The position numbers and the translations under genes were made by a program. From the NCBI GenBank assembly GCA_022712895.1, contig JAFLJS010000035.1, positions 1 through 32,960 on the forward strand: a stretch of DNA of 32,960 bases, written 5' to 3'. Below, piece after piece: positions 516-8,918 of the stretch. The DNA is from Desulfocapsa sp. GTDB lineage: Bacteria > Desulfobacterota > Desulfobulbia > Desulfobulbales > Desulfocapsaceae. The notes below the pieces were generated by a model. The model was given only the letters and a program-made list of their open reading frames with translations, ran no database searches and had not been told where the DNA came from. How positions within the stretch are numbered: position 1 is the stretch's first letter; every line of letters begins with the position of its first letter.

Positions 516-1727
516 ATGATATTCAAGAAAAGCACATCTGCACTAAGCTTTACCATATTAATTTTATTGATTTCCCTTTACGCCGTCACAATTGCCTTTG
601 CCGGAAGAAGCATCATTAAACCCTATGTTGAAACCGGATATCAAAGGGACACCAACTTTTACAAGTCAACAGATGATACCAAAACAGTGGACACCTTCAA
701 TGCCAAAGGCGGTGTTGTACTGGGCTATACCACGGACAAAAGCAATGTCAATCTGGACTATTATTTTAATGTCCTCAGGTACAATGACAGGGATTATATC
801 GCACCCACTCAGTTTGAGGCCGATTCATTTGACTACACGGAACAACGGGCCAGTTTCACTTCTCAAATCCAGGCGACGGATCGACTGCTCCTCGGGCTTG
901 ACGATCTGTTCTGGAGAACCCGTGACCCGGCCAACTCCGATGACACTAATAATGGAACTGACCGGTTCATGTATGATATGAACCGGTTCACGCCGAGATT
1001 AACCTATAAGCTGGGTGAAAAATTCGGTCTGGGATTGAAATACGATAACCTGCTTCTGGATTACAAGGATGATGCAGTGGGACAGGGAGAGGACTCCATT
1101 GAAAACCGGGGAACACTTGTCCTGTCCTACTACTTAAATTCCAAAACCTTCTTTGACCTGGACTACCAGATCTGGGCCATGGATTATGATAAACAATCTG
1201 TGGATTATACCTCAAACCAGGTCATGGCCCGTATAAACCATCAGTTCAACTATATCATCCTGGCGGCTGGCGCCGGTTATCAGAGCAGGGATTTTGACAG
1301 TCCCGGCGTGGATGACCTGGATAAGTTTGTTTGGCAGTTGTCTGCTTCGGGTGAAAAACCCTCGGAGACAGGTAGTATCCCGAGAAGTTCCATGTTAATC
1401 ACCTTTGGCAGTAAAGTGAATGATAACGGTGCCGGCAACTCCTACTACGATGCCCTGCGACTGGATGTCCGGTTGACCTATCTTTTTATCGAAAAAATCA
1501 ATTGCACCCTGGGCGGGTATTACCAGAATTCCGATTATGAAACCTCCACCCGAAAAGATAACCGGTATTACATTTCCATGGCCGCTGATTATCTGATCAC
1601 CGATTGGCTCAGCCTGGGACTTGAGGGCGGGAGAGAAGACCGGAATTCCAATTTTGCTGCCAAGGATTTTACCAATAATTTTATCCAGATCAACGCCAAG
1701 TTTAATTATAATCTGGGAGCCAAATAA
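516..1727 (+). CDS. Outer-membrane beta-barrel protein of polysaccharide export locus
   Basis: A 403-residue protein that starts with a clear signal peptide (basic MIFKKS, then a hydrophobic stretch to about residue 28, with a plausible cleavage after AFA). The mature part has alternating aromatic and polar residues, many Tyr/Asp-rich strands (for example LDYYFNVLRYNDRDY), and ends in a short strand-like segment NAKFNYNLGAK, as barrel proteins do. A GGAG site lies about 9 bases before the ATG. The style matches the putative beta-barrel porin group (BBP2-like) often found next to Wza/Wzz genes. It probably forms or supports the outer-membrane conduit for the polymer; the specific role is inferred from position. 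Confidence 0.8.
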   Translation: MIFKKSTSALSFTILILLISLYAVTIAFAGRSIIKPYVETGYQRDTNFYKSTDDTKTVDTFNAKGGVVLGYTTDKSNVNLDYYFNVLRYNDRDYIAPTQFEADSFDYTEQRASFTSQIQATDRLLLGLDDLFWRTRDPANSDDTNNGTDRFMYDMNRFTPRLTYKLGEKFGLGLKYDNLLLDYKDDAVGQGEDSIENRGTLVLSYYLNSKTFFDLDYQIWAMDYDKQSVDYTSNQVMARINHQFNYIILAAGAGYQSRDFDSPGVDDLDKFVWQLSASGEKPSETGSIPRSSMLITFGSKVNDNGAGNSYYDALRLDVRLTYLFIEKINCTLGGYYQNSDYETSTRKDNRYYISMAADYLITDWLSLGLEGGREDRNSNFAAKDFTNNFIQINAKFNYNLGAK

Positions 1728-1756
1728 CAAACATCCATTAAGATTGCAGACGCAAC

Positions 1757-1795
1757 AAAATAATGGTACAAAAATATTTTTTGTACCATTATTTT
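1757..1795 (+). terminator. Perfect 18-bp hairpin between barrel and exporter genes
   Basis: Bases 1757-1774 and 1778-1795 are exact inverted repeats around a 3-base loop, with GGTAC/GTACC at the middle of an otherwise A/T-rich stem. The 3' arm ends in a T-run, so it could act as a weak intrinsic terminator or attenuator. It lies 30 bases after the barrel stop and 30 bases before the exporter ATG. It could instead be an operator or an mRNA-stability element. Confidence 0.45.
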
Positions 1796-1824
1796 TGCCT
1801 AAACCCCTAGCTGCTGGGAAAATT

Positions 1825-2769
1825 ATGTTACGATTTTCAAATAAATGTTCCGCCTCTTTTTTGTACCTGTCTTTTTTGTTTCTATCGTTGTTTGTGACCA
1901 GCACATGCTTTAATCTGGGAGTTAGCCAGGCAAGCTCAAAAGAGTCTGACTACCGGCTGGGGGCGGACGATGTATTGACCATCACCATTTTTGTGGGGGG
2001 AGAAAAACAGGTGGAAACCGAAATGGTGGTCGGTGGTAACGGCAGTGTGAATGTGCCCTTTATCGGGAAAGTTCAGGCGGCAGGATTGACCATGGAAGCG
2101 TTTGAAAAAGTGATAACCCTTCCCCTGGAGCAGGACTATTTTGTAAACCCCCAGATTCATCTTCAGATAAAAGAATACCACAGCCTCCAGTTTTTTATCT
2201 CCGGCGCGGTTAAGAACCCGGGAAAGTACGAACTGGATTTTATACCCACGGTCATGGATCTGGTGGCCAATGCCGGCGGTGTGCTGCCGGAAAGGGGAAA
2301 TCTTGCCTATATTCTTCGGGGTGCGGCAGCCGAGAAAATTAAAGATGCTGATTTAAAAGATGCTGAGATAACAGACACCCTGTCCAGGACAGAACCCATT
2401 CGGGTGGATCTGATAAAGCTGCTGGATGAAGGGGATATGTCGGAAAATATCCGCCTTCAATCCGGTGATACGATTTACATCCCCCTTGGTACCAAGTTGA
2501 ACCAGACAGCCACCAACGTCTACGTCCAGGGAAAGGTCAAAAAACCCGGGGTTTTTGAGTATCAACCGGGTCTCACCGCGCTGTCCGCCTGTATCATGGC
2601 CGGGGGATTCGCCAAATTTGCCGCTCCCAACCGGGCCAAGGTGATCCGCCAGACAAAAGAGGGCCCGGAAACCATTAAAATCAATCTTGAAAAGGTCATA
2701 TCCGGCGATATGGCCGACCTTCCCCTGAAACCCGGTGACCGTATCCACATTCCTGAATCCTGGCTCTAA
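1825..2769 (+). CDS. Wza-type polysaccharide export protein (Poly_export + SLBB)
   Basis: A 314-residue periplasmic/outer-membrane export protein. The ATG at 1825 was chosen, rather than an upstream in-frame start inside the barrel gene, because it gives a proper export signal (MLRFSNKC followed by a hydrophobic core to about residue 28). Residues 43-118 match the polysaccharide export domain (YRLGADDVLTITIF). Two SLBB-like segments follow at about 122-200 (FFISGAVKNPGKYEL) and 230-300 (VYVQGKVKKPGVFEY). A Cys at residue 28 follows TST, which is not a standard lipobox, so lipidation is uncertain. In this family the protein forms the export channel with a Wzz partner, encoded directly downstream with a 14-base gap. 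Confidence 0.88.
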   Translation: MLRFSNKCSASFLYLSFLFLSLFVTSTCFNLGVSQASSKESDYRLGADDVLTITIFVGGEKQVETEMVVGGNGSVNVPFIGKVQAAGLTMEAFEKVITLPLEQDYFVNPQIHLQIKEYHSLQFFISGAVKNPGKYELDFIPTVMDLVANAGGVLPERGNLAYILRGAAAEKIKDADLKDAEITDTLSRTEPIRVDLIKLLDEGDMSENIRLQSGDTIYIPLGTKLNQTATNVYVQGKVKKPGVFEYQPGLTALSACIMAGGFAKFAAPNRAKVIRQTKEGPETIKINLEKVISGDMADLPLKPGDRIHIPESWL

Positions 2770-2783
2770 AATAAGGAGTAAAC

Positions 2784-4301
2784 ATGCAAGATTCCCCCAT
2801 GGACGAATCGTTTCAGGAAAAAGAGATCCATCTTTCCGAGTACCTGATGGTCCTTCTGAAAAGAAAAAGACTGATCCTTCTTGTCTTTATCCTGACAGTT
2901 TCAGCCACCCTGTTTTATACATTCGCATCTGATCCCATATACGAATCCTCTGCCAAGCTGATCATTGACAAAGAAAACTCATCCTCCCCCATTACAGGAG
3001 AACGGACCGACTACGAGAGCTACCACTCCCAAACCATGACCTTTAATACCAGTATCAAAATGATCACCTCCATCCCGGTCATCCGGGAGGTGATCACCGC
3101 CCTGAAACTGGATGCAGAAAACAATGATTTGGAGGTGAATTTTGTCCGGGAGATTATTTCCCAGTTCAAGGCCAATATCAAGCTTTTGCTCAACTCGGAT
3201 GAGGCCGGGAAATTTTCCCCTGAAGAGTTGAAAAACCGGGAAATGCAGGAGCTCATTGCCACCATCCAGGAAAAAATCAATGTCCAACAGATCCGGGACA
3301 CAAGGCTTTTGAAGATGTCGGTCAAAGATAAGGACCCCGAGCGCGCCACCAATATGGTTAACATGCTGGCAAAAAAATACATGGAGTTCAACCTGACAAA
3401 TAAAATGGAGTCTTCCAAACAAACCCTGGAATGGCTCAATAATGAACTTTATGAACTGAGAAAAAAGCTGGAAGATGACGAGAGAAAATTCTTTGAATAC
3501 AAACAGCAGAACAAGGTGTTTTCCATTGAGGGCAAACAGAAGCTGGCAGAACAGAAAATCCAGGAATTTAACAACAAATACCTGGAAACCCGAAACAAGC
3601 GGTTGGAACTGGATGCCAAAATTAATGAACTGAGCAAAAATATCAACGGGATCAAAGGGGTGGCCAATGTCCGCTCCCTGATCAACAATCCCATGATTGA
3701 AAATATTTATGGCAAGATGGTGGATATTGAGATCGAGCTAACCCGCCTGTCAAAAGTTTATAAATCCAAACACCCCAAGATTGTTCAGGCAAAAAGTGAG
3801 CTGGAGAAAACTGAAAAACGCCTGGCCCTGGAAATCCAGAAAGAACGGGCAAATTTAAAATCCGAGCGCAAGGTGCTGCATGCAAGGGAAGCCACTCTGG
3901 AAAAGACCATTTCCGAATTTGAGACCGATGCTCTTGATACCTCGGGTAAGGAACTTAAATTTACGATTCTTCAGAGAAACATGAATACCAGCCAGAACCT
4001 CTACGATCTCATGGTCTCCCGGGTAAAGGAATCCGACATCCTCCAGACCAGCAGCAGCTCCAATATCCGCCTGGTGGAAACCGCACAGGTTCCCTTATTT
4101 CCCGTATCCCCCAAAAAGAAAAGAAATCTCCTGCTGGGCATTGTCCTGGGGCTTTTTGCCGGCGCAGGCCTTGCGTTTTTCTTCGAATACCTGGATCAGA
4201 CCGTCCGGACCGAAGAAGATATCCAGAACCATTTCAACCTTCCCGTTCTTTCTGTCATCCCTAAAGCTGACAGATCCGCTTCCTATGGAGACAACTATTG
4301 A
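2784..4301 (+). CDS. Wzz/GNVR chain-length determinant protein
   Basis: A 505-residue inner-membrane protein with an AAGGAGT ribosome site and ATG at 2784. There is one membrane segment at about residues 29-48, a long charged coiled-coil region from about 190 to 400, the PVSPKKKRN motif at about 440-448, and a second membrane segment at about 449-466. The cytoplasmic tail ends with a short segment typical of the Wzz side of PCP-2a proteins (TVRTEEDIQNHFNLPVLSVIP). No kinase domain is fused; the kinase is the next gene, overlapping by four bases. The family sets polymer length and couples kinase state to export. Confidence 0.92.
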   Translation: MQDSPMDESFQEKEIHLSEYLMVLLKRKRLILLVFILTVSATLFYTFASDPIYESSAKLIIDKENSSSPITGERTDYESYHSQTMTFNTSIKMITSIPVIREVITALKLDAENNDLEVNFVREIISQFKANIKLLLNSDEAGKFSPEELKNREMQELIATIQEKINVQQIRDTRLLKMSVKDKDPERATNMVNMLAKKYMEFNLTNKMESSKQTLEWLNNELYELRKKLEDDERKFFEYKQQNKVFSIEGKQKLAEQKIQEFNNKYLETRNKRLELDAKINELSKNINGIKGVANVRSLINNPMIENIYGKMVDIEIELTRLSKVYKSKHPKIVQAKSELEKTEKRLALEIQKERANLKSERKVLHAREATLEKTISEFETDALDTSGKELKFTILQRNMNTSQNLYDLMVSRVKESDILQTSSSSNIRLVETAQVPLFPVSPKKKRNLLLGIVLGLFAGAGLAFFFEYLDQTVRTEEDIQNHFNLPVLSVIPKADRSASYGDNY

Positions 4302-5527
4302 TTTTTAGAAAAAAAGAAAAAAGATCCGCAGAAAAAGACAGGGAACATTTGCTGTTAACATTTCCCGGCAACTCAAGATATGCAGAATCCTACAGAACCT
4401 TGAGAACCAATCTTTTCTTCGCTCAAACGGACGAGGAAGTGAAATCAGTGGTCGTCACAAGCTCTGTGGAAAAAGAAGGCAAAACCACCACGGCGGTCAA
4501 CCTTGCCTACACCATCGCCCAGACAGACCGGAAGGTGCTGCTCATGGATTGTGACCTTCGTCGCCCCCACCTGAGCAAGTTGTTTTCCAATGAACAGGAA
4601 ACTGGAGTCTCAGAACTGGTGACCGATGTGTTCGGCACCCGGCTGACCAACGGCAGCCTGGACATCTTTTCGATCAGCGATCTTGTGCTGCTGACCAAAC
4701 TGCAGAGAAGATCATGCCGGCTGGACATTGAGAACCAGAATACCCAGGTGGCCATCTATTTTGACCGGGGTGTGATGACCGACATCTACTGGAAAAATCG
4801 GCCCGACGCCAAAAAACTGGCTAACATCCTGATCCGGGATAAACTGCTAACGGAAAAAGAGGCCTACCTGGCCCTGGGCCACCAGAAAAAATCGATTCAG
4901 CGGTTGGGCACCATCCTCTACACCATGGGATTTGTCTCGAAAAAAGATGTTTCCAAAGCCCTGTCCGTCCATACCATAGAGGCGATCCGGGCGGTTTCCT
5001 CCATGGAAGCGGGGCAGTTTATCTTTTATCCCCTTGCCAATGGGGAAGGTAAATCGGCCATCAGCCAGAACATCGATTTTGAAAGGCTCTATGGGGAATT
5101 CTCCTCCAGTGAAGACAGCCTGAAATACATCAAAACCGCCATTGACAAAGCAGTAAAGGAAACGGAAACCCCCAATTTGTTTATCCTGCCCGGCGGCAAG
5201 GTGCCTCCCAATCCATCGGAAATGATCGGATCAAAGCGGATGGAGTTTTTAATTCAATACCTGAAAAACAGCTTTGATTTCATTGTCATTGATACCCCGC
5301 CGGTCATGCCAGCCACCGACGCCATTCTCCTGGCCCCGAGCACCGACGGCACCATCTTTGTCATTAAATCCGGCAACACGGACCGTAAAATTATCCAGGA
5401 CGTCATTGACCAGTTCAAAGCCGCTAACCAGCCCATCATCGGCTCTGTCCTGAACCTGGTGGACATGAAAAAAGAAGGGTATTACCGGTATTACAGCAAA
5501 TATTATTCTTCTTACTATGGACAATAA
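4298..5527 (+). CDS. BY-kinase (CpsD/CapB-like) with inserted DUF4388-like domain
   Basis: A 409-residue cytoplasmic tyrosine autokinase. The start is TTG at 4298, overlapping the wzz stop, with GGAG about 8 bases upstream. A Walker A segment (EKEGKTTT, residues 58-65), Walker A' (LLMDCDLRRP, 81-90), Walker B (FIVIDTPP, 328-335) and a C-terminal cluster of eight tyrosines (GYYRYYSKYYSSYYGQ) are all present. Between GVSELVT (about 109) and NLFILPGG (about 293-300), where usual CpsD proteins have about 20 residues, there are about 180. This stretch begins GSLDIFSISDLVLLTKLQ and has IYFDRGVMTDIYW and LLTEKEAY...LGTILYTMGF segments, resembling the DUF4388/PatA N-terminal domain used in delta-proteobacterial signalling. 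Kinase function is well supported; the identity of the insert is by motif appearance only. Confidence 0.9.
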   Translation: MIFRKKEKRSAEKDREHLLLTFPGNSRYAESYRTLRTNLFFAQTDEEVKSVVVTSSVEKEGKTTTAVNLAYTIAQTDRKVLLMDCDLRRPHLSKLFSNEQETGVSELVTDVFGTRLTNGSLDIFSISDLVLLTKLQRRSCRLDIENQNTQVAIYFDRGVMTDIYWKNRPDAKKLANILIRDKLLTEKEAYLALGHQKKSIQRLGTILYTMGFVSKKDVSKALSVHTIEAIRAVSSMEAGQFIFYPLANGEGKSAISQNIDFERLYGEFSSSEDSLKYIKTAIDKAVKETETPNLFILPGGKVPPNPSEMIGSKRMEFLIQYLKNSFDFIVIDTPPVMPATDAILLAPSTDGTIFVIKSGNTDRKIIQDVIDQFKAANQPIIGSVLNLVDMKKEGYYRYYSKYYSSYYGQ

Positions 5528-7082
5528 GGTTTCGACACCCCTTAAACTCATTCTGATCGGCATTTTATCCGCCCTGCTCATTATCTGCGGTTCTCTTTTT
5601 TGGCCCAGATTCCTCTACCAGGAAGGAATCACTCAGCGTAAACTGAAACACTATGAAAAGGCCACCCTTTATTTTAAGAAAGCGGAACAGGCCATGCCAA
5701 AATCCATTGCCTCCTGGTTTGCCCGGGCAGATCTGTTCAGGATTTATACAAACCACGGCCAGGCACTATACCATCTGGGTGCTGGCGACTGGAAGGAAAA
5801 CGGCTTGTCCCTTTCATCCTATGGCCTGTTGGTCCGGTCAAAATATTATCTTACCCAGGCCTCAATAATAGAACCCGCTCATTACATAAACGCGTATTGG
5901 CTGAGTCAAACCGAAGAAGGACTGGAAAAAGCCTATCCATGGCTTTACCCTAAAAAAAGCAATCAGTTCAATGCAGACACCTATTATCAGAAAGCCATTT
6001 CCCTGCGACCCTCTGGGATCACTGTCCGGTATGCATACCTGAAATATCTCCACTACAAAGGCCAAAACTCAAAAATTCCGGAACTGGTTCAATACATGAT
6101 GGAAATTCACCCCCCTACATACCGGCATCTGAAAAAAGAATCCTTTTATACCAAGGATCTGATACCCTATGTCGAAAAGGGGCTTCATCTGGCAGTTGAA
6201 CAGGAGACCCTTTCAAGGGATTCTTTCAAAGCCCTCTCGGATATCTATTTTAACCAGAATGATTTTGAAACTGCCATCTCCTATTACAAGAAGCTTCTCG
6301 AGTATAAGCCATCCTTAAACGGATCAAATGAATATATCCACATGGCAAGCCTGTATTTAAAGGGGCAGCAAACCGAAAACAGTTTTAAATATTTTGAACA
6401 AGCGCTTCTGGAATCGAAAAATACCTCATCAACCATCCATCGCATTTATAATATATTTAAACGGGAAAAACGGTTCTCGGAATTTATCGGGCTGTATGTT
6501 CACATCCAGGCAAAGGGGATGGAAACCCAGGAGATTGAGATGGCCCTGGCAAAAAACTGGATGGAGATGGGAAGACCTGCCCTTGCAAAAGCCAGACTTA
6601 CCCGGATAAATGCCGCCAACCCCCATGCCCCTGCCTATTATCTTCTGGCAAAAATAGCCCAAAAAGAAAAAAACTGGGATCAGATGGAAACATCCATCCA
6701 GAAGGCCACCCGGCTGGACCCTTCAAACCCGGGTTACTACTATCTGTTTTCCCAGGCCCTTAATTATCAGAAAAAATACACCCATGCCGAAGAAGCCGCC
6801 ACAAAAGCCATCCAGCATGCTCCCAAAGAAAACCCCTGGTATTTCAATCACCGGGCCTGGATCAGATGGCGCCAGAAAAAATATGGTCAATCCGCCGAAG
6901 ACTGGCAAAAGGCCTTTGCCATAAAGCCGGACAGAAGTGATTTTCCCTATAGGATCGCGCTGGCCCAGGAGCAGGAAGGAAAGTTTGAAAAGGGGCTTGC
7001 CTATATCCAAAAGGCCATTGCCCTGGACCCGGATAACCCAAAATATAAAGAGCTCAAAATCAGACTGAGCACCCATAAATAG
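5517..7082 (+). CDS. Membrane-anchored TPR protein (copy 1)
   Basis: A 521-residue protein starting at the ATG at 5517, which overlaps the kinase gene by 11 bases and suggests translational coupling. One N-terminal membrane segment (about residues 9-29) ends in WPRFLYQEGITQRKL. The rest is tetratricopeptide repeats, clearest at about 220-290 and in the C-terminal 200 residues (A-LDP-NP style ends). It probably sits in the inner membrane with a periplasmic scaffold domain. It is a full-length paralogue of the protein at 30177, with about 70 extra residues (roughly two TPR units) near the C-terminus. A role in polymer assembly or secretion is inferred from context; no enzymatic motif is seen. 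Confidence 0.85.
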   Translation: MDNKVSTPLKLILIGILSALLIICGSLFWPRFLYQEGITQRKLKHYEKATLYFKKAEQAMPKSIASWFARADLFRIYTNHGQALYHLGAGDWKENGLSLSSYGLLVRSKYYLTQASIIEPAHYINAYWLSQTEEGLEKAYPWLYPKKSNQFNADTYYQKAISLRPSGITVRYAYLKYLHYKGQNSKIPELVQYMMEIHPPTYRHLKKESFYTKDLIPYVEKGLHLAVEQETLSRDSFKALSDIYFNQNDFETAISYYKKLLEYKPSLNGSNEYIHMASLYLKGQQTENSFKYFEQALLESKNTSSTIHRIYNIFKREKRFSEFIGLYVHIQAKGMETQEIEMALAKNWMEMGRPALAKARLTRINAANPHAPAYYLLAKIAQKEKNWDQMETSIQKATRLDPSNPGYYYLFSQALNYQKKYTHAEEAATKAIQHAPKENPWYFNHRAWIRWRQKKYGQSAEDWQKAFAIKPDRSDFPYRIALAQEQEGKFEKGLAYIQKAIALDPDNPKYKELKIRLSTHK

Positions 7083-7451: not shown

Positions 7452-8918
7452 ATGAAACAGCAAATTATGAAAGTCAATGTTTCTGATTTAACCTGGGATC
7501 CATTCATTTACCCCAGGGGGGCGAGAAGCCAAAAAACCATCACTGCCTATGGTGAAGCCTTTGCAGTCGGCGCTATATTTCCACCAATAATGATTCAAAG
7601 GGTCTTCAACTACCCGGGTATAGAGACCCTGGTAACCATTGTCGTAGATGGGATTCATCGCTGGTCCACCTTTCAGGAAAATGGGATCAAAGAGATTTGT
7701 GCAGTTGAATTCAAGGATACCCCCCTTGATTACGAGGAGAATAAAACCATGCTTCTCCTTGAATCTGCTCAATGCAACACCAGCCATGGAGATCGTTTAA
7801 GTTCAAACGATAAAAAACGAGTCGCCCGGGATATCGCATCAACGGACCCGGAGTGCAACTATACTGAAGATGCCCTTGCCCAAAAATTAGGGGTTACCCG
7901 GCAAACCATCAACACCTGGATTTCAGATATCCGTGCCCGGCAGAAAACAAACAGAAATTCTATTATCATCCGCTTAAGCCGCCTTGGATGGACCCAGGAA
8001 AAAATTGCACAAATAACGGAGATGACCCAGGGTAGAGTGGCTCAAATTATTAATAATGCAAATCTTTGCGAAATTAATAATTTGCTCACCCAGGGCCGTA
8101 ACATGGAATACATAGCCGCCCATTACCAGATGGACCTCGCCCTTACCTGGGCCATAAGATTACAGGGAAAGACTGATCAGGAAAAATTTAAAGAGCTTGG
8201 CTGGGGCCTTCGCACCTGGGACCAGTGGAATTTTAACGAATGCGATGAACGATTCGGGGACGACTGGCCCGGCCGTATCCCGGCCCAGCTCATTGCCCAC
8301 ACCTTGTACTATTTCACAAAACCCAACGACCTTGTCCTTGACCCAATGGCCGGCGGAGGCGTAGTCCCGGACACATGCCTCCTCTTTGAGCGGAAATGCC
8401 AGGCCTTTGATCTGGCGGCCCAAGACAAGCAAGGCAAGCGCCCGGAAATAGAATACCACCACTGGGATCCCAAAACAGAAACATGGCCCGTTACAAAAAA
8501 ACCAGACCTGATCTTTTTTGATCCCCCTTATTACACCAAGAAAAAAAAGGAATACGAACAAAAAACAAATAAGGATACCAGTTCCATATCCTCTTACACA
8601 AAAAAGGACTATAAACAATTTTTTAAAAATTTTTTCACCCTGGCCCATAAAAACGCAAAACCATCGACAACCCTGGCTTTCCTCAATGCTGACTGGCGTG
8701 ATTTTGAATCCACACCCGCTGCAGAAGAAAAATCCGATAAAGCCATCACCATATTTGACTACCACAGCCTTTTATCAGAAACGGGATGGAAAACAATCTT
8801 TCGCATAGAATGCCCCCTGTCCTCTGAACGCCTGACCGGGAACCAGGTGCAGAAAATGCAGGACAAACGGATCCTCGGAACCATCGGAAGAACACTGCTG
8901 ATTGCAAAAATTAAATAA
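7452..8918 (+). CDS. ParB-N / HTH / DNA methyltransferase fusion
   Basis: A 488-residue multi-domain protein. Residues about 6-110 resemble a ParB/Srx nuclease-like domain, including VVDGIHRW at 64-71. Two helix-turn-helix segments follow: about 139-160 (ALAQKLGVTRQTINTWI) and 172-200 (LGWTQEKIAQITEMTQGRVAQI). The C-terminal half is an amino-methyltransferase fold with a SAM-binding motif I (LVLDPMAGGGVVPDTC, 294-309) and catalytic DPPY (357-360). The DPPY and FxGxG-like motifs support N6-adenine or N4-cytosine methylation; the target is unknown. No restriction enzyme is adjacent, so it may be an orphan modifier or an epigenetic/mobile-element regulator. There is no clear ribosome site before the ATG at 7452. 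Confidence 0.88.
   Translation: MKQQIMKVNVSDLTWDPFIYPRGARSQKTITAYGEAFAVGAIFPPIMIQRVFNYPGIETLVTIVVDGIHRWSTFQENGIKEICAVEFKDTPLDYEENKTMLLLESAQCNTSHGDRLSSNDKKRVARDIASTDPECNYTEDALAQKLGVTRQTINTWISDIRARQKTNRNSIIIRLSRLGWTQEKIAQITEMTQGRVAQIINNANLCEINNLLTQGRNMEYIAAHYQMDLALTWAIRLQGKTDQEKFKELGWGLRTWDQWNFNECDERFGDDWPGRIPAQLIAHTLYYFTKPNDLVLDPMAGGGVVPDTCLLFERKCQAFDLAAQDKQGKRPEIEYHHWDPKTETWPVTKKPDLIFFDPPYYTKKKKEYEQKTNKDTSSISSYTKKDYKQFFKNFFTLAHKNAKPSTTLAFLNADWRDFESTPAAEEKSDKAITIFDYHSLLSETGWKTIFRIECPLSSERLTGNQVQKMQDKRILGTIGRTLLIAKIK

Follow-up and report, generated by a model that had tools for sequence, protein, structure and literature searches.

Kinases of the CpsD/CapB type are bacterial tyrosine kinases (BY-kinases) that occur with a separate Wzz protein of the CpsC/CapA type (class 2b of the polysaccharide co-polymerases, PCP-2b), and Wzc is the fused form of such a pair. 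The ExxRxxR motif of BY-kinases has a role in ring assembly. In the available account of Wzc, octamers assemble and dissociate as the tyrosine tail is phosphorylated, which regulates polymerisation (PMC11986026), and the cues that trigger BY-kinases are described, in the part of the source available, as largely unexplored (PMC5035731). The present analysis concerns a kinase gene in a stretch of 32,960 nucleotides from Desulfocapsa sp. (GenBank assembly GCA_022712895.1, contig JAFLJS010000035.1, positions 1 to 32,960), here called the window. The window kinase resembles CpsD/CapB in its Walker A, A' and B motifs, its ExxRxxR motif, its tyrosine tail, the adjoining Wzz gene and the predicted core fold. 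It differs from CpsD/CapB in carrying a net 168 additional residues between Walker A' and Walker B, predicted to form a separate domain. Judged from its sequence, this insert is a DUF4388 (PATAN) domain that itself encloses a module resembling MshEN.

EcpK of Myxococcus, a BY pseudokinase, is likewise a stand-alone BY-kinase fold partnering a kinase-less PCP-2, but unlike the window kinase it has neither Walker motifs nor a tyrosine tail (available text of PMC12004946). An EcpK-like pseudokinase reading of the window kinase was rejected, since both features are present in it. MshEN or GSPII domains are found in MshE, PilB, PilF and NfrB. The main text of the paper on MshEN mentions kinases twice, as CheA and as Ser/Thr kinases, not as tyrosine kinases (PMC5013675). 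No BY-kinase with a PATAN or MshEN insertion was found in the open-access literature as far as its text is available, subscription literature lying outside the search, and nothing was found in the open-access literature linking DUF4388 with cyclic di-GMP (c-di-GMP); the one hit there for DUF4388 by itself concerned a Chloroflexi nitrite reductase. The nested domain could reveal what signal controls such kinases, and would offer a direct, testable input to BY-kinase control. In this arrangement the candidate sensor is part of the kinase polypeptide, which in most cases is not joined to its membrane partner, so that a single purified protein would suffice to address the question.

The kinase and the domain nested in its core

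The kinase and its motifs are located as follows.

4298..5527, + strand: 409-aa tyrosine autokinase carrying the nested insert, with TTG start (TIGR01007 match)
4298..4624, + strand: kinase core, N-terminal part, residues 1-109
4385..4405, + strand: ExxRxxR motif (ESYRTLR), residues 30-36
4460..4486, + strand: Walker A (EKEGKTT), residues 55-63, with K62
4541..4567, + strand: Walker A' (MDCDLRRP), residues 82-90, with D84 and D86
5153..5524, + strand: kinase core, C-terminal part, residues 286-409
5279..5302, + strand: Walker B (VIDTPP), residues 328-335, with D332
5477..5521, + strand: tyrosine-rich C-terminal tail, 8 Tyr

A first-pass annotation of this DNA had described the kinase motifs as intact, and Walker A, A' and B, ExxRxxR and the tyrosine tail were indeed all found. 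The protein matches the family model TIGR01007 with E 7.9e-52 and 175.8 bits (cut-off 108). The residues preceding EGK in Walker A vary also in 52 ordinary kinases, i.e. kinases lacking the insert. With the catalytic Lys and Asp in its Walker motifs, a tyrosine-rich tail, the family match and the predicted core fold all present, the window protein is by its sequence a CpsD/Wzc-type (CpsD/CapB-like) BY-kinase with complete catalytic motifs. AlphaFold, run for the whole kinase on a 10-sequence alignment, gave five models spanning mean pLDDT values of 45-69 (best model 69, pTM 0.68). In structural alignments the kinase model matched VpsO with Z 25.2 (198 aa, rmsd 3.0), CapA1B1 with Z 24.2 and Wzc with Z 23.5, and the 19 solved BY-kinase entries listed aligned at Z 20.5-25.2. 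The ~195-200 aligned residues are scattered over 21-391 of the model and leave ~170 residues in this range unaligned, which fits a kinase core with the insert skipped.

To locate the insertion site, the window kinase was compared with three ordinary kinases encoded elsewhere in its genome (C34, C25 and the less similar C43), all of which match both flanks of the insert. GVSELVT ends at residue 109 and NLFILPGG starts at residue 293, a stretch as long as the first-pass annotation had claimed; relative to each of the three kinases, the part between Walker A' and B is longer by a net 168 residues (0, 6 and 5 residues in C34, C25 and C43 where the window kinase has 168, 174 and 173). The insert is made up of the following parts.

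4631..5161, + strand: segment taken as the insert in the analyses, residues 112-288
4652..4813, + strand: PATAN/DUF4388, first half, residues 119-172
4814..4885, + strand: MshEN-like motif I, degenerate, residues 173-196
4886..4900, + strand: 5-residue spacer, residues 197-201
4901..4972, + strand: MshEN-like motif II, residues 202-225, His at the Gln61 equivalent
4973..5089, + strand: PATAN/DUF4388, remainder of the Pfam match, residues 226-264

The DUF4388-like character that had been proposed for the insert was borne out by a Pfam match (PF14332) over residues 119-264 with 52.8 bits and E 5.1e-14 (cut-off 25 bits), and on this sequence match the insert is a DUF4388/PATAN domain. The match takes 146 residues to cover 109 profile positions, and there is therefore extra sequence inside it. 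In the AlphaFold prediction of the insert alone (pLDDT 79, pTM 0.75) the order of elements is strand, helix, three strands, four helices and strand; this beta-alpha-beta-beta-beta ... beta order is shared with PATAN, as is the Pfam match found in all 26 inserts described below. The insert is predicted to fold as a separate domain with the kinase core kept, and the AlphaFold models thus agree with the separate folding anticipated earlier. A Foldseek search of the insert against PDB gave no match at E<=0.001, MshE standing at rank 2 with E 0.41 and probability 0.99, and no PATAN structure was recognised in the resulting list. We know of no solved PATAN structure.

The four-helix part of the insert is 53 residues long (173-225) and has a 24+5+24 register, the layout described for the MshEN motif pair, in which two 24-residue motifs are joined by a 5-residue spacer (PMC5013675, available text). 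It is matched over residues 174-223, at borderline scores, by NF053729, an NCBIfam model of the MshE-related c-di-GMP motif, with 34.2 and 36.1 bits in hmmscan and 38.3 bits in the genome search (cut-off 38). All 26 inserts match this model at E<=0.01, and seven of ten individually scored relatives reach or exceed its cut-off, with up to 54.8 bits. When the insert was compared with PDB sequences by phmmer, PilB and entry 5htl, MshE with c-di-GMP, came up at E 0.0026-0.017. With a profile of ten inserts, values of 4.6e-10 for PilF, 4.9e-7 for PilB and 8.4e-7 for MshE were obtained, at profile positions 53-115. The best five structural rows for the insert were c-di-GMP-bound MshE (Z 4.6, 54 residues, rmsd 2.6), PilF GSPII-B (Z 4.5) and three Xanthomonas PilB N-terminal/PilZ entries (Z 4.1, 3.8 and 3.8); no row reached Z 5 because only a small helical bundle matches. 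The evidence for the MshEN-like identity is stronger from sequence than from structure. As read from the sequence, the module lies within PATAN, which in turn lies within a tyrosine kinase. It shares with MshEN/GSPII the register, the hydrophobic skeleton and several contact residues, but is unlike them in being nested in PATAN, in lacking the Arg and Gly of motif I and the Gln of motif II, and in being unmatched by PF05157. Of the domains suggested earlier for the insert, DUF4388 was found and so was an MshEN-like motif pair, whose position inside DUF4388 had not been foreseen; a match to PF05157, the Pfam model of MshEN, was not. In two proteins of the same genome (C22 and C43) PF05157 covers the segment that follows the motif pair, and this C-terminal subdomain of MshEN therefore appears to be absent from the window kinase.

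PATAN domains are reportedly able to carry an alpha-helical insertion (attributed to Makarova et al., 2006). The helical insertion is a four-helix bundle. DUF4388 occurs eight times in the Desulfocapsa genome, and a helical insertion is present in three copies (the window kinase, C53 and C8). NF053729 matches all three and none of the five copies without an insertion, which suggests that the helical insertion of PATAN in this genome is an MshEN-type module. The other PATAN copies of the genome stand alone or seem, on inspection by eye, to be joined to CRP-like or receiver-like sequence, in contrast to the window copy, which lies inside an enzyme core. C53 and C8 resemble each other; both are stand-alone PATAN proteins, in frames of 212 and 207 aa, and both have the MshEN-like insertion. 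Four frames of 360-376 aa (C29, C70, C73 and C28) form a small paralogous family and appear, by eye, to combine a CRP/cNMP-type sensor with a C-terminal DUF4388 that lacks the helical insertion. A D-x-x-W-x-x-R-P signature is found at insert residues 162-169 (4781-4804), just ahead of the four-helix module; across the 26 inserts its W is kept in 22, R in 20 and P in 24, and it is possibly a second functional site.

Recurrence and ancestry of the insert

The first-pass annotation had proposed a search for the same architecture in other Desulfobacterota, the phylum from which the genomes for all counts were sampled. A family profile had matches in 10 of 257 genomes of the order at E<=1e-70 and, at E<=1e-55, in 13 of the 395 genomes sampled across the phylum, the own genome included. 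A contig scan with a single peptide pattern yielded nine loci, all with Desulfobacterota names; by length and match figures five of them (L068, L070, L073, L074 and L075) are contigs that had been found before, and these were counted once. The distinct kinases number 26, and the arrangement recurs in related sulphate-cycling bacteria. Within the family, 36 of 93 genomes hold some hit to the window kinase at E<=1e-20, and only seven of them one that spans the insert. The kinase is matched by 364 plasmid records, in none of which a single place accounts for 80% of the query. As such, the NF053729 module is widespread in the phylum, occurring in 58 of 59 genomes; what is rare is its location inside a kinase.

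Ordinary kinases prevail. A core-only profile applied to 55 kinase frames found one main core piece of ~180-215 residues in 52 of them and two pieces in three, the latter (L097, L098 and L104) being insert kinases already counted; 26 of the 30 loci fetched by the core-only search were ordinary. The earlier annotation had allowed for the arrangement being universal and already described in CpsD. Universality is rejected, given 13 of 395 genomes with the insert and 52 ordinary kinases without it, and the open-access literature, as far as its text is available, yielded no account of it.

The 26 kinases have open frames and a common insertion site, and the insert measures 176-179 aa between equivalent positions in every one. 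DUF4388 was found in all 26 (10 of 10 and 17 of 17 in two sets that both include the window kinase). The constant length and the invariable presence of DUF4388 indicate that the insert is not due to chance. An assembly or frame artefact was rejected, as 26 distinct sequences have a common site. More broadly, a neutral passenger insertion, or an artefact of assembly or annotation, would agree with the rarity of the arrangement (13 of 395 genomes) and with that only; it is made very improbable by the open frames and single insertion point of 26 distinct sequences, 20 of which fall in one supported clade. The constancy of length would also suit a structural spacer that alters ring geometry or the contact with the base of Wzz and senses nothing, as would the proximity of Wzz, which adjoins the kinase or shares its frame in 24 of the 25 loci other than the window (the exception, L074, lies at a contig edge). 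However, the insert consists of two known signalling-type modules rather than of featureless sequence, and related kinases manage without it, as the predominance of ordinary loci in the core-only search indicates. A mere spacer is accordingly regarded as improbable, if less so than a passenger.

A kinase-core tree was built of the 26 insert kinases and 52 ordinary kinases, three duplicate rows having been removed. Twenty insert kinases, including that of the window, are in one clade (support 100/99). On the best tree the 26 insert kinases require two changes, against a mean of 21.9 after shuffling. All 26 form one group in 2% of 200 bootstrap trees, and in the AU (approximately unbiased) test a single clade of all 26 was not rejected (p 0.251). 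Tree and AU result together point to one or a few origins followed by inheritance.

A parallel is suggested by EpsG, known here from its model (TIGR03029) alone. Positions 2-60 of this model match the MshEN-like part in four of ten inserts (L061, L064, L065 and L010; E 3e-6 to 1e-3). Ordinary kinases match it mostly from position ~56-82, a few from 36-52. Like the window kinase, the EpsG model has an apparent MshEN-like segment on a BY-kinase, but the segment is N-terminal and no PATAN is implied. By sequence, EpsG kinases apparently represent an independent association of MshEN with a BY-kinase. None was found above the TIGR03029 cut-off in 198 genomes.

Candidate signals and proposed function

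The insert is probably a regulatory domain integral to the kinase, through which the phosphorylation cycle of the Wzz/kinase co-polymerase is influenced. In this proposal, a BY-kinase would have gained a self-contained regulatory domain in the loop that precedes the strand NLFILPGG. The domain, a PATAN fold interrupted by an MshEN-like four-helix module, would take up a signal in the cytoplasm. On binding of the signal, a small molecule or a protein, the four-helix module would move relative to the PATAN sheet; as the kinase core holds the insert at both ends, this movement may alter the packing of the kinase ring or access to the tyrosine-rich tail. The Wzz/kinase ring, which assembles and disassembles in response to phosphorylation, would be affected in turn, and with it polymer length and export. 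The first-pass annotation had likewise suggested that a second signal could act through the insert to gate polymer length and export. The regulatory role, the coupling to the ring and the nature of the signal are all inferred. By analogy with Wzc, a domain anchored in the core would be well placed to bias such an assembly cycle. In the ParA/MinD topology, which we take to apply here, the insertion loop precedes an edge strand and is remote from the nucleotide site; allostery via the ring rim would therefore be expected rather than blockage of ATP binding.

Whether the signal could be c-di-GMP was judged from the contact residues of the module. With hydrophobic swaps counted, nine key positions are reached in 5 of 9116 other 53-residue stretches of the same 26 proteins, stretches that are not independent of one another. 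Relatives come closer to the MshEN consensus, L061 keeping 12 and L064 11 of the 14 key positions; C22, which has a canonical motif pair in the same genome, keeps 12. Across the 26 inserts, Gln32 is kept in 22 and L10 in 25, position 9 is Lys in 16 and Arg in two, position 11 is Ala in 15 and Gly in five, and position 61 is Gln in 11 and His in nine. The own genome has 25 GGDEF matches. The window copy departs from the consensus contact residues (R, L, G and Q of both motifs) at R9, G11 and Q61, and because of this departure the module is named MshEN-like and not classed as a c-di-GMP receptor. As ligand, c-di-GMP is the leading candidate, with about an even prospect of holding for at least some members of the family; for the window copy it is rather unlikely. 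The fuller reading, in which c-di-GMP binds a doubly nested receptor module and allosterically gates the phosphorylation cycle of the kinase, the arrangement having arisen once or a few times in Desulfobacterota with a parallel in EpsG, is considered doubtful. If true, it would mean that a second messenger acts directly on the Wzz/kinase switch by which the length and export of exopolysaccharide are set.

The degenerate ligand residues of the window copy would also fit a protein-docking module, no longer able to bind nucleotides, whose partner (a GTPase, a response regulator or the neighbouring TPR protein) positions or controls the export complex. The pilus machinery is the supposed target of PATAN response regulators, and PixE has been hypothesised to bind PilB1 (PMC7690835, in the text available); TPR sequence adjoins the kinase in 15 of the 25 loci, a good number of which include little flanking sequence. 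Docking alone would not predict the retention of Q32 and L10 seen above, however, and the near-complete motifs of L061 and L064 also speak against it; it is a tentative alternative at best.

Several observations weigh against the proposal of a built-in sensor with an MshEN-type module. The window copy is identical to MshEN at only eight of the 14 key positions, nine if hydrophobic swaps are counted, and carries the substitutions R9 to K, G11 to A, G18 to K, L25 to A, L54 to V and Q61 to H. In the available text on PilF GSPII-A, Ala at the Gly position lowered affinity ~10-30-fold, and measurable binding required that the Arg and both Gln be restored (PMC12002112). NF053729 gives the closest relative, L072, no more than 24.3 bits, and PF05157 has no match in the window kinase either at E<=0.01 in the search of the own genome or at E<=1 in the Pfam scan. 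The structural Z score of the module is low (4.6 over 54 aa, none >=5). Mean pLDDT is below 50 in three of the five whole-protein models, and the module is their less certain part (block pLDDT 48-63 in the whole protein, 63-83 in the isolated insert). The site of action on the ring, moreover, is an inferred one.

Genomic context of the kinase gene

The kinase gene is preceded and followed by genes of a polysaccharide export locus.

516..1727, + strand: outer-membrane beta-barrel (BBP2_2)
1621..2769, + strand: Wza-type export protein (Poly_export, SLBB)
2784..4301, + strand: Wzz/GNVR chain-length protein without kinase domain (Pfam Wzz and GNVR)
5517..7082, + strand: TPR protein directly after the kinase

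The TTG start of the kinase gene (4298) overlaps the stop codon of the upstream Wzz gene, whose product is the presumed partner of the insert kinase. Wzz and kinase are joined in four of the 26 kinases (L057, L062, L064 and L065), which have long frames of 862-962 aa including a Wzz part. The true start of the Wza-type protein is probably downstream of the listed TTG.

The window kinase groups with those of Desulfobacula (L072, 70-71% identical) and Desulfotignum (L067, 66%), and by tblastn the Wzz protein is 80% and 76% identical to theirs, respectively. The homologue in a genome of the same genus (Desulfocapsa, G006, locus L073) is only 45% identical to the window kinase. The greater closeness of Desulfobacula and Desulfotignum than of the same-genus homologue suggests lateral transfer of the locus, and the sequence comparisons make it probable that the export block was acquired in this way. 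The whole block of Wza, Wzz, kinase and TPR genes (window 516-7082) is closest to Desulfobacula and Desulfotignum. Further along the polysaccharide locus, a frame of 488 aa at 7452-8918 has helix-turn-helix matches and a DNA-methylase-like match.

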